The notes under the pieces: generated by a model | What the model was told of the DNA's origin: nothing | Database searches by the model: none | The model's input: the letters and a program-made list of their open reading frames with translations, nothing else | Position numbers and translations under genes: made by a program | In this document: one piece after another, positions 19,689 to 58,229 of the stretch | How the letters are laid out: every line of letters starts with the position of its first letter | Numbering within the stretch: position 1 is the stretch's first letter | IMG/VR virus record: IMGVR_UViG_3300038620_000126 | Location: 1-64,000 of that record | Reading direction: 5' to 3' (one strand) | Origin: a virus | Length of the DNA: 64,000 bases

Positions 19689-20057
19689 ATGATAAACATC
19701 AAAAAACGTAAAAAAATATACTATGATTCAGATAGTAAATATAAAACTGTAAATCACATATCTCACTTTAAAATGCCTCCAACCGTAACTGAAGATTATT
19801 ATGACAATGTTTTAATTAAACCTACGATGCTTGTATATCATAATAGTTATATTGTTAGTGTAGATTTTCTTATTTTCACTATAGATGGATTTGTTTCCCA
19901 TAATTTATTTGGTCCATGTTTAGTAGCTTTTGGGGCATCACTATCATATGAGTTTAACTATTATGGAAAAACGGTTTCTTATGAAGAACTAAAAAATATA
20001 AAATTAAAAAATCGAATTAAAGAAACAAGTAACAAAAGTAGTTATGATAAACCGTAA
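19689..20057 (+). CDS. Tandem paralogue 1, unknown
   Basis: 122 residues. Basic N-terminus (INIKKRKKIYYDSDSKYKT), conserved core DYYDNVLIKPTM, FGPCLVAFGASLSYEFNYYG and C-terminal YEELKNIKLKNRIK. There is no signal peptide or membrane segment. The last residues (SSYDKP) are encoded by the same bases as the start of the next copy, so the two genes overlap by 14 nt. Confidence 0.6.
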   Translation: MINIKKRKKIYYDSDSKYKTVNHISHFKMPPTVTEDYYDNVLIKPTMLVYHNSYIVSVDFLIFTIDGFVSHNLFGPCLVAFGASLSYEFNYYGKTVSYEELKNIKLKNRIKETSNKSSYDKP

Positions 20058-20406
20058 AAAAAAGAAAAAAATATTGTATGATTTATTTGTATATTTAGAT
20101 AGTGAACTTAAAATTGTTTTACAAATAACGGTGGACTATCTTAAGGAAAGATCAAAAGGTTATTACAACAGTCTTACTATAAAACCTTCGAGGTTTGTCC
20201 ATTACGATGGTAATATTACTAAAATAGTTTTTACAGTTCTTATTTTGGGTAATAATTGTGTTATTTCTGAAATTCACAATTCATTTGGTCCATGTATTAT
20301 AGATTTTGAAGCATCAATGACTTATGAATTTGCTTACTGTGGAAAAATGGTTTCTTATGAAGAATTAAAAAACATAAAATTAAAAAATCGAATTAAAGAA
20401 AAGTAA
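20044..20406 (+). CDS. Tandem paralogue 2 (diverged), unknown
   Basis: 120 residues. It keeps the basic start (INRKKKKKILYD), the FGPCIIDFEASMTYEFAYCG block and the SYEELKNIKLKNRIKEK end. The central part is strongly diverged from copies 1, 3 and 4, implying an older duplication or relaxed constraint in the middle. Confidence 0.6.
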   Translation: MINRKKKKKILYDLFVYLDSELKIVLQITVDYLKERSKGYYNSLTIKPSRFVHYDGNITKIVFTVLILGNNCVISEIHNSFGPCIIDFEASMTYEFAYCGKMVSYEELKNIKLKNRIKEK

Positions 20407-20417
20407 CAAAAGTAATT

Positions 20418-20795
20418 ATGATAAACATCAAAAAACGTAAAGAAATATACTATAATTCAAATAGTAAACATAAAACTGTAAATCATATAGTTCATTTTAA
20501 AATGCCTCCAATCGTAACTCAAGATTACTATGACAATGTTTTAATTAAACCTACGTTGTTTGGATATACTGCTAGTAAGATTGGCGTTGCAAGTTTTCTT
20601 GTTTATACTATAGATGAACTTGTTCACCATAACTTATTTGGTCCATGTTTAGTAGCTTTTGGGGCATCACTATCATATGAGTTTAACTATTATGGAAAAA
20701 CGGTTTCTTATGAAGAATTAAAAAATATAAAATTAAAAAATCGAATTAAACAAACAAGTCACAAAAGTAGTTATGATAAACATCAAAAAACGTAA
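20418..20795 (+). CDS. Tandem paralogue 3, unknown
   Basis: 125 residues, close to copy 1 at both ends but with a different central segment (FGYTASKIGVASFLVYTIDE). The 3' end overlaps copy 4 by 23 nt. Confidence 0.6.
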   Translation: MINIKKRKEIYYNSNSKHKTVNHIVHFKMPPIVTQDYYDNVLIKPTLFGYTASKIGVASFLVYTIDELVHHNLFGPCLVAFGASLSYEFNYYGKTVSYEELKNIKLKNRIKQTSHKSSYDKHQKT

Positions 20796-21126
20796 AAAAA
20801 TATACTATGATTCAGATAGTAAACATAAAACTGTGAATCACATATCTCACTTTAAAATGCCTCCAATCGTAACTGAAGATTATTATGACAATGTTTTAAT
20901 TAAACCTACGATGCTTGTATACCATGATAGTTATATTTTTGGTGCAAGTTTTCTTATTTTCACTATAGATGGATTTGTTTCCCATAACTTATTTGGTCCA
21001 TCTTTCATATTTTTTAAGGTATCACTACCATATGAATATGAATTTGGTTATTATGGAACATCGGTTTCTTATGAAGAATTAAAAAACATAAAATTAAAAA
21101 ATCGAATTAAAGAAAGAAATCACTAA
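20773..21126 (+). CDS. Tandem paralogue 4, unknown
   Basis: 117 residues, nearly the same as copy 1 for the first ~75 residues, then diverging (FGPSFIFFKVSLPYEYEFGY) before the common SYEELKNIKLKNRIKE end. Ends 23 nt before the terminase start. Confidence 0.6.
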   Translation: MINIKKRKKIYYDSDSKHKTVNHISHFKMPPIVTEDYYDNVLIKPTMLVYHDSYIFGASFLIFTIDGFVSHNLFGPSFIFFKVSLPYEYEFGYYGTSVSYEELKNIKLKNRIKERNH

Positions 21127-21133
21127 ATAAATA
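21125..21133 (+). promoter_or_regulatory. Late-promoter-like AAATAAATA for split terminase
   Basis: Overlaps the end of tandem copy 4 and lies 16 nt before the GTG at 21150. It gives this half-gene its own transcription start. Confidence 0.5.
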
Positions 21134-21149
21134 CTAAAAAAATTATTAA

Positions 21150-23057
21150 GTGGTTCGAAATTTTTTAATATGGATTATTAAAACTTTAATAGTTTTAGTA
21201 AATTCATTAAACTATTGTATTAATAAAAAAGATAAAAAACTGTGGGATTCTATACCTGTATCTGACTGGTTAGTGCATACTGAAGGGGGGTATGTAAAGC
21301 TTAATGAAGTCCACTTAACAAGACCCTATAAAATACATACAATTCGAACGAAAGATTATAGTTTAAGTTGTGCAGATAATCATTTAGTTTATAATGGTAA
21401 TAAATTATTTAATGTTAGTGATTTGGTTGTGGGTTCAGATGTTTCAACTTTTAATGGAATTCAAAATATTGTAGATATTGAAAAGAGCTTGTTTTATTCA
21501 AATATGTTTGATATAAGTGTTGAATCTACAAGTTACAAACCACACTCATATTATTCGTCTGGGATTTTAAGTCATAATACCGTTACTAGTGCTATATATT
21601 TTGCATGGTATAGTATATTCAATTCTGATAAAGTTTTAATGCTTTTGGCTAATAAAGAACGCACGGCTAAAGAGCTAATTTCCAAAACTTCAACTGTTTT
21701 AGAAAATTTACCATTTTTTCTTAAACCCGGAATTATTGAAAAAAACAAAAAGCAGTTAATTTTAGATACAAATTCTAAAATAACATCTGAAACCACAACT
21801 GAAAATTCAGCTAGAGGTGATACTGTACACGTTTTGTATATGGATGAATTTGCATTCGTTCCCGATAACATTGCCAGAAACTTTTATACATCTGCTTATG
21901 CTACCATGTCTTCAAGTGAAATAGCGCAAATTATAATTACATCAACACCAAATGGTAAAAACACCTTTTATGATATATACTCAAATGCTATAAACGGTAA
22001 AAATGTTTTTAAGCCAATACGTGTTGACTGGTGGCAAGATGATAAAAAAGATGACAACTGGTTTTGGGATACCCTTGCTAACTTTAATTATGATTATGAT
22101 AGATTCAACCAAGAATATGGAAACCAGTTTGTATCTGGTAATAAAGTTTTGTTAGAAACGAAAACTTTAAAGCGAATGCAAAAGATGAAATCCAGTTATG
22201 TTTTTAAGCAAATAGATGCGCTAGATGATCTTGGAACCCAAACAACAGCTTTTGATTACTCTGACTTAGTCTGGCATCCTAAATTTAATATAGAAGAACT
22301 TACAAACCCTGATAGTTATTTTGTTTTTTCTGTTGACTTGTCAAGTTCATTAAATCAAGATTATAATGTTGTTAATATATTTAAGGTTATACCTTTTACA
22401 AAAAGTAAAATAAATTCAATCTTAAATTTTTCGGGAGAGCAGGATTTTTTTGGGTTGCTACAAGTTGGAATGCTTCGTTCTAATACAATCAGTTTTGATG
22501 ATTTAACATCTATTGTTTATATTCTTTCAACAAAGTTAATAAATGATGATAATGTAAAAATTGTTGTTGAAATGAATCACAGAGGAGATGAATTTATTTA
22601 TAGATTAGATACAATTTTCGGTGATTGGAATGACTTTGGTTTACATAAAATTGCTAACTTTAAACACACTAAAGATGCAAAACGTGAAAAACCGGGTATA
22701 AAGGTAACAAGCACTAATAAAGCTCTTATATGTAAAAAGGGTAAAGAAAGTATAGATAACAACAGAATATTAGTAACTGAAACCATGAGTTTTGAAGAGA
22801 TTTCTAATTTTGGTAAAAATGAAAGTGGAACTAAATTTGAAAGCAGTGTAGGAACTATGGATATAGCTATGACGGTAATGAATGTTGCCAATATTTTTGA
22901 AACAAGTGATTGGCAGGTTCTTACTGGTGAATTGTTTGAAAAAATGGATAGTGAATTTGTTAACTTAGTAAATGAAAAAATGGGGGATACAAGCGAGTAT
23001 CAAAGTAATGAAGATTTGTTTAATATAAATCTAACCACAAATAACAGAATAAATTAA
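21150..23057 (+). CDS. Terminase large subunit (gp17-like), C-terminal part fused to intein C-fragment
   Basis: 635 residues. Residues ~1-143 are an intein C-terminal region: a strand pair around DWLVHTEGGYVKLNEVH, a block-B-like SLSCADNHLVYNGNKL, LFNVSDLVVGSDV, a block-F-like NMFDISVES, and terminal SGILSHN. The residue after Asn143 is Thr144, which starts TVTSAIYFAW, aligning with T4 gp17 just after GK of Walker A. The terminase then has Walker B YMDE (~230-233), coupling motif TSTPNG (~264-269), and nuclease acids near D396 (SVDLSSS), E474 (VVEMN) and D571 (TMDIAM). The ~165-residue N-extein and the intein's first block with its nucleophile are missing from this ORF. A packaging motor would need trans-splicing with a partner encoded elsewhere. 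The GTG start is the only plausible one after the promoter. Confidence 0.85.
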   Translation: MVRNFLIWIIKTLIVLVNSLNYCINKKDKKLWDSIPVSDWLVHTEGGYVKLNEVHLTRPYKIHTIRTKDYSLSCADNHLVYNGNKLFNVSDLVVGSDVSTFNGIQNIVDIEKSLFYSNMFDISVESTSYKPHSYYSSGILSHNTVTSAIYFAWYSIFNSDKVLMLLANKERTAKELISKTSTVLENLPFFLKPGIIEKNKKQLILDTNSKITSETTTENSARGDTVHVLYMDEFAFVPDNIARNFYTSAYATMSSSEIAQIIITSTPNGKNTFYDIYSNAINGKNVFKPIRVDWWQDDKKDDNWFWDTLANFNYDYDRFNQEYGNQFVSGNKVLLETKTLKRMQKMKSSYVFKQIDALDDLGTQTTAFDYSDLVWHPKFNIEELTNPDSYFVFSVDLSSSLNQDYNVVNIFKVIPFTKSKINSILNFSGEQDFFGLLQVGMLRSNTISFDDLTSIVYILSTKLINDDNVKIVVEMNHRGDEFIYRLDTIFGDWNDFGLHKIANFKHTKDAKREKPGIKVTSTNKALICKKGKESIDNNRILVTETMSFEEISNFGKNESGTKFESSVGTMDIAMTVMNVANIFETSDWQVLTGELFEKMDSEFVNLVNEKMGDTSEYQSNEDLFNINLTTNNRIN

Positions 23058-48370: not shown

Positions 48371-49930
48371 TTAGTTGTTAGTCATTTTCCACTTAATTTT
48401 ATCAGTACTATAAATTTTTTCATATCCCATTTTTTTCATGATTTCAGATTCTGTATTATTACTTACAAAACTTTGATCTAGCTTAAATTTTTGTTGTATT
48501 CTTTTTTTAGAAAATGCAGATTTATGAATACGTTTATCACTTTTATAATATGAATAATCTGGTTTAGTTTCATACACTTTTTGAAAACCTAACTTTTGAT
48601 ACATATCTCCTGTAAACATTGAACTATCAGAAAAACTAATAATTTTTTCTGGATTATAATTTTTAACAAAATAATTAAATAGCTTACTAGAACCACCAAT
48701 AACATTTGTGTTAAGAATCGTAGCATATCGAGTAAGTTCCCAAACATCTTCTTTGTTTTTTGATGTTGATATATTTCTAGTTCTTTTGCTAAAACTCATA
48801 CAAGCTACCAGTCTTGTTTTATAATAAAGACCAAAATTTAATTCATAAAAAGAATTTAAACCTTGAATGTGATTTAATTTATAAAACTTTTTGATTTCTT
48901 TTGGATTGACTTTTAACACACTACATTTTCTAGCATATACTTTATTTTCGGTTTTACCAATTGCATTTTTTATAAGCGACTTTACTATATCTGTTTTGTA
49001 TTGCCAGTCATCTTCCCATACATGTATTAACCTGTATCCAGCTTTTTTGCAAAGATCTGTTTTTCTTTTATGGTAATATTTGTCATTTAAAAACTTATGT
49101 GAATGATAGTATAATCCATTGAATTCAATTGCTAATTTATAATTTGGTATTACAATATCAAGTTCATAAGGACTGATAAGTTTTTTATCATTAAAAAGTA
49201 ATTCATTATAATTTATTAAAGAAGTAATATAATTTTTTAGTTGCATTTCGCCCTTAGAAGTATATCTTTGACGTTTGTTATAACAAAGTGGAACACCATC
49301 ATTTAACAACTTATTAACTTGATTTTTATTAATAGAAAATTGATTCTGTGTGCAACTACAATCATGACACTTTAATGTAATAGAGTTGGATTCATTTTTT
49401 AAAATTTTATAATTATCTTTTAATTTTTCATAATTATTTTTTACCCATTCACTTAACACTTTTTCTTTTATATACTTTGATTGAGATGGTACTTTTGTGC
49501 CATATTTTTTAAGATTTGTGTTTTCTCTTTTTGCTTTAATTTCTTCAATTTGGTTGGGATTCTTAACTCCATACTTTTTAAGCAGTGTGTTTTCTTTAGA
49601 TTCTTTAACCGAATTGTCTTGAGAAATATTAGTAACATTATAACGATTTTGATTTGTTGCTTCTCTTTTTTTGTTTGTTATATTCTTTCCTTTTTTACGG
49701 CAATCTGAACTGCAAAATTCAGCAAATTTCTTTTTTTCGTTTATCCACTTTGTTTTTAATCCACACCATTTACATGTTGGTAAAGACTTTAATCCGTTTT
49801 TATACAAATAAAACTTTTGTGAAGTTGTTAAATCTTCAGATTTTTCTACATCACTAAAGTAATCTTTTGTATTATCTTCAAAGTATTGTCTATGCTTTTT
49901 ATATCTAAAATCCAGATTATCCATTTTCAT
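48371..49930 (-). CDS. Free-standing homing endonuclease, Vsr-like (EDxHD-type)
   Basis: 519 residues. Zinc-finger-like cysteines at the N-terminus (CKWCG ... FCSSDC). Several short ~30-residue DNA-binding repeats follow (LLKKYGVKNPNQIEEIKAKR, NLKKYGTKVPSQSKYIKEKV). The nuclease core is YELDIVIPNYKLAIEFNGLY with HSH, then KAGYRLIHVWEDDW, the Vsr/restriction-like fold. A GNAT-like C-terminal region follows (HIQGLNSFYELNFGLYY; IISFSDSSMFTGDMYQKLGF). Vsr-like homing endonucleases are known from phage group I introns and from fractured, split-intein genes. The start codon lies inside a 154-bp duplicated segment. Confidence 0.8.
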   Translation of the reverse strand: MKMDNLDFRYKKHRQYFEDNTKDYFSDVEKSEDLTTSQKFYLYKNGLKSLPTCKWCGLKTKWINEKKKFAEFCSSDCRKKGKNITNKKREATNQNRYNVTNISQDNSVKESKENTLLKKYGVKNPNQIEEIKAKRENTNLKKYGTKVPSQSKYIKEKVLSEWVKNNYEKLKDNYKILKNESNSITLKCHDCSCTQNQFSINKNQVNKLLNDGVPLCYNKRQRYTSKGEMQLKNYITSLINYNELLFNDKKLISPYELDIVIPNYKLAIEFNGLYYHSHKFLNDKYYHKRKTDLCKKAGYRLIHVWEDDWQYKTDIVKSLIKNAIGKTENKVYARKCSVLKVNPKEIKKFYKLNHIQGLNSFYELNFGLYYKTRLVACMSFSKRTRNISTSKNKEDVWELTRYATILNTNVIGGSSKLFNYFVKNYNPEKIISFSDSSMFTGDMYQKLGFQKVYETKPDYSYYKSDKRIHKSAFSKKRIQQKFKLDQSFVSNNTESEIMKKMGYEKIYSTDKIKWKMTNN

Positions 49931-57694: not shown

Positions 57695-58216
57695 TTATTT
57701 ATTTACTAGGAAAAATTCTACTGCATTTTTATAGTCTTTAGGAACAGAATTTTCAATTGTATCATGTATCCATTCCGATGCAAGCCATGTTAAAATTACT
57801 ATTTTTACTTCAGATTTAGTTAGTTCTTCAAATTTCATTTTTCCCTTTTCAGTTTTAAAAGTTTGATTATAATCTATTATTTCATTTTTTATGTAAATGT
57901 AAAAATCTTTAATTTTATTTCTACTAACTTCATATTTTTTATCAACTCTTTTTCGCATTATATCGTCTATTTCACTAAACATGTAGTCAAACGCCTCGCT
58001 GGGTTTTGGTAACTTTGAATCTTTTTTGTAGGTTTTTCCGTGTTTTGTTCGCTGCTTTTCTTTCATATGTTCTATATCATCAATAACAATAGAAGCGGTT
58101 TCTCTTAATCCACGTTTTATAAATCTTTTACTTTTATTTGTAATGTTAAAGGGGTTATCGTCGTATTCAAACGCTTCAAATAAAAATTCAGAAAAAGTTG
58201 GAATAAAGCTTGACAT
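57695..58216 (-). CDS. Putative internal head protein
   Basis: 173 residues. N-terminus IPTFSEFLFEAFEY (LFE|A, the canonical P1' Ala). The body is basic and helical (RGLRETASIVIDDIEHMKEK; VKIVILTWLASEWIHDTIEN). No domain recognised. Confidence 0.6.
   Translation of the reverse strand: MSSFIPTFSEFLFEAFEYDDNPFNITNKSKRFIKRGLRETASIVIDDIEHMKEKQRTKHGKTYKKDSKLPKPSEAFDYMFSEIDDIMRKRVDKKYEVSRNKIKDFYIYIKNEIIDYNQTFKTEKGKMKFEELTKSEVKIVILTWLASEWIHDTIENSVPKDYKNAVEFFLVNK
57696..57704 (-). promoter_or_regulatory. Late-promoter-like AAATAAATA (minus strand)
   Basis: Lies 13 nt upstream of the TTG at 57682, overlapping the 3' end of the upstream gene. Confidence 0.5.
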
Positions 58217-58229
58217 TCCTAGTTTTTCT

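Follow-up and report, generated by a model that had tools for sequence, protein, structure and literature searches.

A phage terminase gene that is probably split, its C-terminal half led by an intein fragment that starts in a helical hairpin

An open reading frame (ORF) at 21150–23057, on the plus strand of a viral genome fragment, is very probably the C-half of a fractured gene for the terminase large subunit (TerL), with an intein inserted inside the P-loop of the packaging ATPase. The stretch of DNA analysed, hereafter the window, comprises bases 1–64000 of the 110,246-base record IMGVR_UViG_3300038620_000126, which is open at both ends and has no terminal repeats. Because relatives carry both halves of such a gene, trans-splicing is by far the best reading of how TerL would be assembled in this phage.

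Anatomy of the terminase C-half

The ORF encodes 635 amino acids (aa) from a GTG start that directly follows an in-frame stop. Its residues 1–143 form an intein C-fragment (IntC) ending in SHN, and T4 gp17-like TerL begins at Thr144. As a single sequence, the intein region matched VidaL (PDB 6vgv) at E 5e-4 (phmmer/hmmsearch), and a profile built from it and 15 related regions matched VidaL at 3e-12, gp41-1 at 2e-10 and Cat, the consensus atypical TerL intein, at 1e-9. From Thr144 onward, the protein aligns with T4 gp17 (PDB 3ezk/3cpe, E 2e-31), starting at the Thr after the Walker A GK. Pfam PF03237 matches the same part (E 3e-15), and PHROGs likewise point to a T4-type terminase large subunit. 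A preliminary description of this DNA had placed an intein C-region of about 143 residues, ending in SHN, before a Thr that follows the Walker A GK, and had located the insertion inside the P-loop. The intein and gp17 matches bear out both statements, as the TerL homology begins at the Thr directly after the Walker A Lys.

The IntC has blocks B, F and G, the His-Asn end and a Thr at position +1 (Table 1). In the C-extein, the T4 gp17 alignment and a 16-row alignment show that the Walker B residues D232-E233, the coupling motif TSTPNG and the nuclease triad D396/E474/D571 are retained. Via the PDB chain offset, D571 aligns with D542 of T4; the residue preceding it is Met in this phage, whereas it is Asp in all of the compared relatives. 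Of the characters of a T4-type TerL, the C-half lacks only the GK part of Walker A; an N-half must supply it.

Table 1. Features of the C-half and of the region upstream (window coordinates)
Feature	Position	Strand	Basis
Four tandem paralogous genes of ~120 aa, in the place of the relatives' N-half or endonuclease gene	19689..21126	+	not terminase or intein
AATAAATA, late-promoter-like motif, 16 nucleotides (nt) before the GTG of the C-half	21126..21133	+	enrichment upstream of ORF starts
IntC, residues 1–143	21150..21578	+	solved inteins VidaL, gp41-1 and Cat; alignment with 15 related intein regions
Hydrophobic helix (VRNFLIWIIKTLIVLVNSLNYC..), equivalent to hairpin helix 2 of the contiguous homologues' intein	21153..21221	+	alignment with the contiguous L111 intein at hairpin residue 71; AlphaFold2 helix 2–24
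Intein block B (SLSCADNHLVYN; A-D-x-H invariant in the family, ADNH here)	21360..21395	+	alignment of intein regions
Intein block F (MFDISVESTSYKPHSYY; MFD...H)	21504..21554	+	alignment of intein regions
Intein block G (GILSHN: penultimate His, terminal Asn)	21561..21578	+	alignment of intein regions
C-extein: TerL from Walker A Thr144 (+1 nucleophile) to the end	21579..23057	+	T4 gp17 alignment and 16-row alignment

Relatives with both halves and the position of the break

Relatives were gathered by tblastn to phage records and by two kinds of IMG/VR scan. Their intein lies at the identical GK/T (or GK/S) site, and 14 distinct TerL genes have the same form, most of them with a complementary N-half that reads ...RQxGK/C and continues with intein block A. 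Both halves are present in LR756500.1, L012–L016, L076, L077, L080–L082, L092, L093, L095, L106, L107, L114, L119 and L123. In LR756500.1 (462 kb), an N-half of 191 aa (...LAARQTGK/CFFHN...), an endonuclease-like ORF and a C-half with 38% identity to that of this phage stand in a row. The same order, with a gap of 0.9–1.3 kb holding the endonuclease-like ORF, recurs in L015, L016, L076, L077, L080, L093, L106, L107, L114 and L119, and a free-standing endonuclease gene separates adjacent halves in at least 11 relatives. These ORFs are mutually related, and the two that were scanned both end in a weak REase_MTES_1575-like domain; in L081, a T5orf172 ORF takes their place. The N-half of L013 terminates in ELDWNKDPKQTLKKCIKFLND, the final 21 residues of the L015 endonuclease, which reads as the fossil of an endonuclease deletion. 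In a tree of the C-exteins, genes of the three kinds (split, contiguous and intein-free) are intermingled, which fits a mobile element; for the split-helix type, well-supported branches force at least seven changes of label. The present ORF branches deep.

The halves are dispersed in three relatives. LR756501.1 (735 kb) has both on the minus strand, 12.4 kb apart, with the N-half at 623877–624374 and the C-half at 609472–611493. In the 108,076-base contig IMGVR 3300042330_000854, they occupy 105206–105583 and 20454–22250, which places them 83 kb apart, or 23 kb if the molecule is circular. In IMGVR 3300001592_000148, the halves stand on opposite strands, divergent, with 85 bases between the open frames and endonuclease ORFs behind the N-half. 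Such distances and orientations cannot be explained by a frameshift or by RNA cis-splicing; an assembly error is possible in single contigs of this kind. The phage studied here fits the pattern of these three relatives.

In two contiguous homologues (L111, with its identical copies L101 and L117, and L108), the first intein helix is followed by extra sequence. The AlphaFold2 model of the L111 intein (predicted local distance difference test 88, predicted template modelling score 0.83) consists of an intein fold with two added helices, at residues 50–68 and 74–91, and its best Foldseek match was VidaL (E 6.5e-11). The split C-halves, including that of this phage, begin at L111 intein residues 65–72, and the N-halves end at about 69–80. 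Since these ends span the hairpin turn (69–73), one hairpin helix falls to each half. The start of the present C-half agrees with those of 13 other split C-halves at this turn, and in its AlphaFold2 model the leader MVRNFLIWIIKTLIVLVNSLNYC forms a helix (residues 2–24, moderate confidence) that aligns with the second hairpin helix. The intein N-fragment (IntN) measures 52–76 aa in same-type relatives; a similar length, about 52–76 aa and ending in a helix, would be expected for this phage. In L081, L093 and L104, the split TerL intein at this site is of another form, with an IntN of 31–49 aa and no such helix on IntC. The two helices of the hairpin may serve as a docking clamp between the halves.

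The break had been proposed to lie close to the N-terminus of the intein, with AceL-TerL as the precedent. An AceL-, GOS- or VidaL-like break at the intein's beginning was not borne out: the AceL/GOS type has an IntN of 25–37 aa that ends after the first helix, together with a Cys+1, whereas here the break falls in the turn of a helical hairpin added to the intein, the IntC is led by an extra helix and the +1 residue is Thr.

Related elements were also seen outside the GK/T site of TerL. In L012 (2869–4035), and likewise in L013 and L019, a second P-loop gene is fractured: a clamp-loader (gp44-like) C-half carries the same IntC type, with a +1 Thr at its P-loop. An SbcC/gp46-like gene in L042 (1764–3944) bears a contiguous intein of the same profile at its P-loop (GAGK/C...SHN/ST), and TerL on that contig is intein-free. 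The TerL genes of L103 (1419–4966), L093 (4055–6340) and L105 (1764–5284) apparently have a second intein or break nearer Walker B besides the GK/T intein, and these terminases are possibly three-piece. Directly downstream of the LR756500.1 C-half lies a TerL-like ATPase-domain paralogue with a degenerate Walker A, SRQMGIS (L002, 7841–8653).

Search for the N-half and alternative explanations

No N-half was found in the 110,246-base record by protein searches, by six-frame searches with hidden Markov models (HMMs) of N-halves at full sensitivity or with an IntN HMM, and reading through stops with an HMM of 54 sequences gave no N-half above chance either. In leave-one-out controls, the same method retrieved distant N-halves that had been held out, at E 1e-22 to 1e-38, so that an overlooked N-half in the record is unlikely. 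The weak top match, at 57698–58228 on the minus strand, has no GKC and is not a terminase, and it was rejected. As the preliminary description had stated, neither an N-extein nor a block A precedes the C-half, where the four tandem paralogues are unrelated to terminase. An N-half was indeed not found beside the C-half, but the ORF ending in GK followed by Cys, which had been suggested for the remainder of the genome, did not turn up in the 110-kb fragment. Given that the record is open-framed at both ends and that relatives reach 462–735 kb, the N-half most likely lies in the missing part, which would probably put it at least 21 kb upstream or at least 87 kb downstream of the C-half.

Several points weigh against a fractured, trans-spliced terminase. 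The N-half of this phage is absent from the record, and the C-half has no close relative in IMG/VR, nor have the major head protein and the tandem genes. The TerL portion is divergent: of 117 columns without variation among the compared relatives, it keeps 87. In the AlphaFold2 model of the C-half by itself, the ATPase part is poor.

The missing N-half would also agree with a C-half that is a decaying remnant, with an intact terminase gene in the unsequenced part of the genome. Duplicates of TerL do occur, and LR756501.1 has another TerL-like stretch, interrupted by two in-frame TAA stops (L071; 700703–701047, minus strand). We consider this explanation improbable, as the 635-codon ORF keeps every visible intein and TerL catalytic residue and is preceded by a late promoter motif. 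Nor was an intact second terminase, which the preliminary description had named as a check, present elsewhere in the record: the ORF was the only match to the PHROG terminase model in the 110 kb. Still less probable is an assembly break or chimera just upstream that conceals a contiguous terL-intein gene. The record is a metagenomic contig, but it contains no N's, the start of the C-half coincides with those of the other split C-halves at the hairpin turn, and both a stop in frame and a promoter motif of its own precede the GTG of the ORF. Finally, terL introns exist in phages, and the N-terminal exon could be joined at the RNA level by a self-splicing intron, as in ICP1 terL (PMC10448857), but this is very improbable given that Rfam gave no intron match in 15–27 kb and that TerL continues the reading frame of the intein blocks, with SHN/T at the junction.

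Upstream genes, proposed assembly and known systems

The four tandem genes upstream of the C-half are 44–81% identical to each other, and the one copy that was scanned gave no family match. No endonuclease gene adjoins the C-half, and the endonucleases found between the relatives' halves had no match at E≤1e-3 in the 110-kb record. Elsewhere in the window, at 48371–49930 on the minus strand, a free-standing homing endonuclease (phrog_3339) adjoins the major head protein gene; it shares its MTES_1575-like domain with the ORFs that lie between terL halves in relatives.

The C-half had been credited with its own late-type promoter. The motif TATAAATA was not enriched and was rejected for this role, but AATAAATA, which is T4-late-like, was: 44 of its 58 copies in the 110-kb record are in sense and within 80 nt upstream of ORF starts, a space that makes up 3.7% of bases. 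It also precedes the portal, prohead-protease and head-tail adaptor genes and is, with this record-wide enrichment just before gene starts, a candidate late promoter of the phage. Because a copy sits 16 nt before the GTG, the C-half is probably transcribed on its own, late.

In the assembly that we propose, a separate N-half, made elsewhere in the genome, would comprise the gp17-like N-terminus up to ...RQxGK, a Cys-led block A and a helical end. Docking of IntN and IntC would be aided by their helices, the one at the end of IntN pairing with the one that leads IntC. The two fragments would then form a single HINT domain, and splicing would link GK to T and give a complete P-loop. Until that happens, the Walker A Lys and the Walker B Glu would sit on different chains, so that neither half could be an ATPase. 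The C-half would be under a late promoter. As to origin, an intein may have invaded the P-loop, a homing-endonuclease gene may then have fractured the intein gene at the hairpin turn, and subsequently the endonuclease gene may have been lost and one half relocated.

T4 gp17, to which the C-extein is homologous from T167 with Walker B and the nuclease triad kept, is a single uninterrupted chain. In cyanobacteria, the essential gene DnaE likewise exists as halves at dispersed genomic sites, whose products a split intein joins; unlike the present case, this is a bacterial replicative polymerase with a canonical split site, from an unrelated lineage.

Split TerL inteins and fractured genes are already known. 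AceL-TerL (IntN of 25 aa, Cys1/Cys+1) and GOS-TerL (37 aa, Ser1/Cys+1) (PMC11766414) resemble the present family in being split inteins of phage TerL with an N-terminal-side break and a large IntC, in line with the match of Cat to the family profile. However, they are split after the first helix (S2) (PMC11766414, PMC13014065), whereas the family junction here is Cys1...Thr+1 within Walker A and the IntN of same-type relatives is longer, with an added helix. The natural splits with a short IntN that had been seen before all follow strand 2 or helix 1 (PMC13014065). VidaL is the nearest solved intein in both sequence and fold, but its IntN has 16 aa, split at S1 (PMC13014065), and such a hairpin is not described for it. 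Fractured genes with split inteins and free-standing endonucleases, as far as the account citing Dassa et al. 2009 describes them (PMC6892783), resemble the relatives in which N-half, MTES_1575-like endonuclease gene and C-half follow one another; unlike these, the C-half of this phage adjoins neither endonuclease nor N-half, and the halves of three relatives are far apart or on opposite strands. No description of the hairpin break, of the terminase GK/T insertion or of dispersed or opposite-strand phage halves was found in the searchable literature, outside which most subscription papers fall, and an earlier description of any of these is possible.

Tentatively, these inteins may form a class with its own docking clamp, which would let the halves of an essential gene scatter, even to opposite strands, and would turn the packaging ATPase into a two-input step, with inteins of the same profile also in the P-loops of clamp-loader and SbcC genes of related phages. 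Natural split inteins with long, helix-tagged fragments, together with their contiguous relatives, provide material to test how splits originate and which rules govern fragment pairing, and the helix-tagged pairs are also useful for protein engineering. Annotation pipelines will label such terminases partial or missing. The findings indicate that an essential viral motor can be encoded by two unlinked genes joined via protein splicing.
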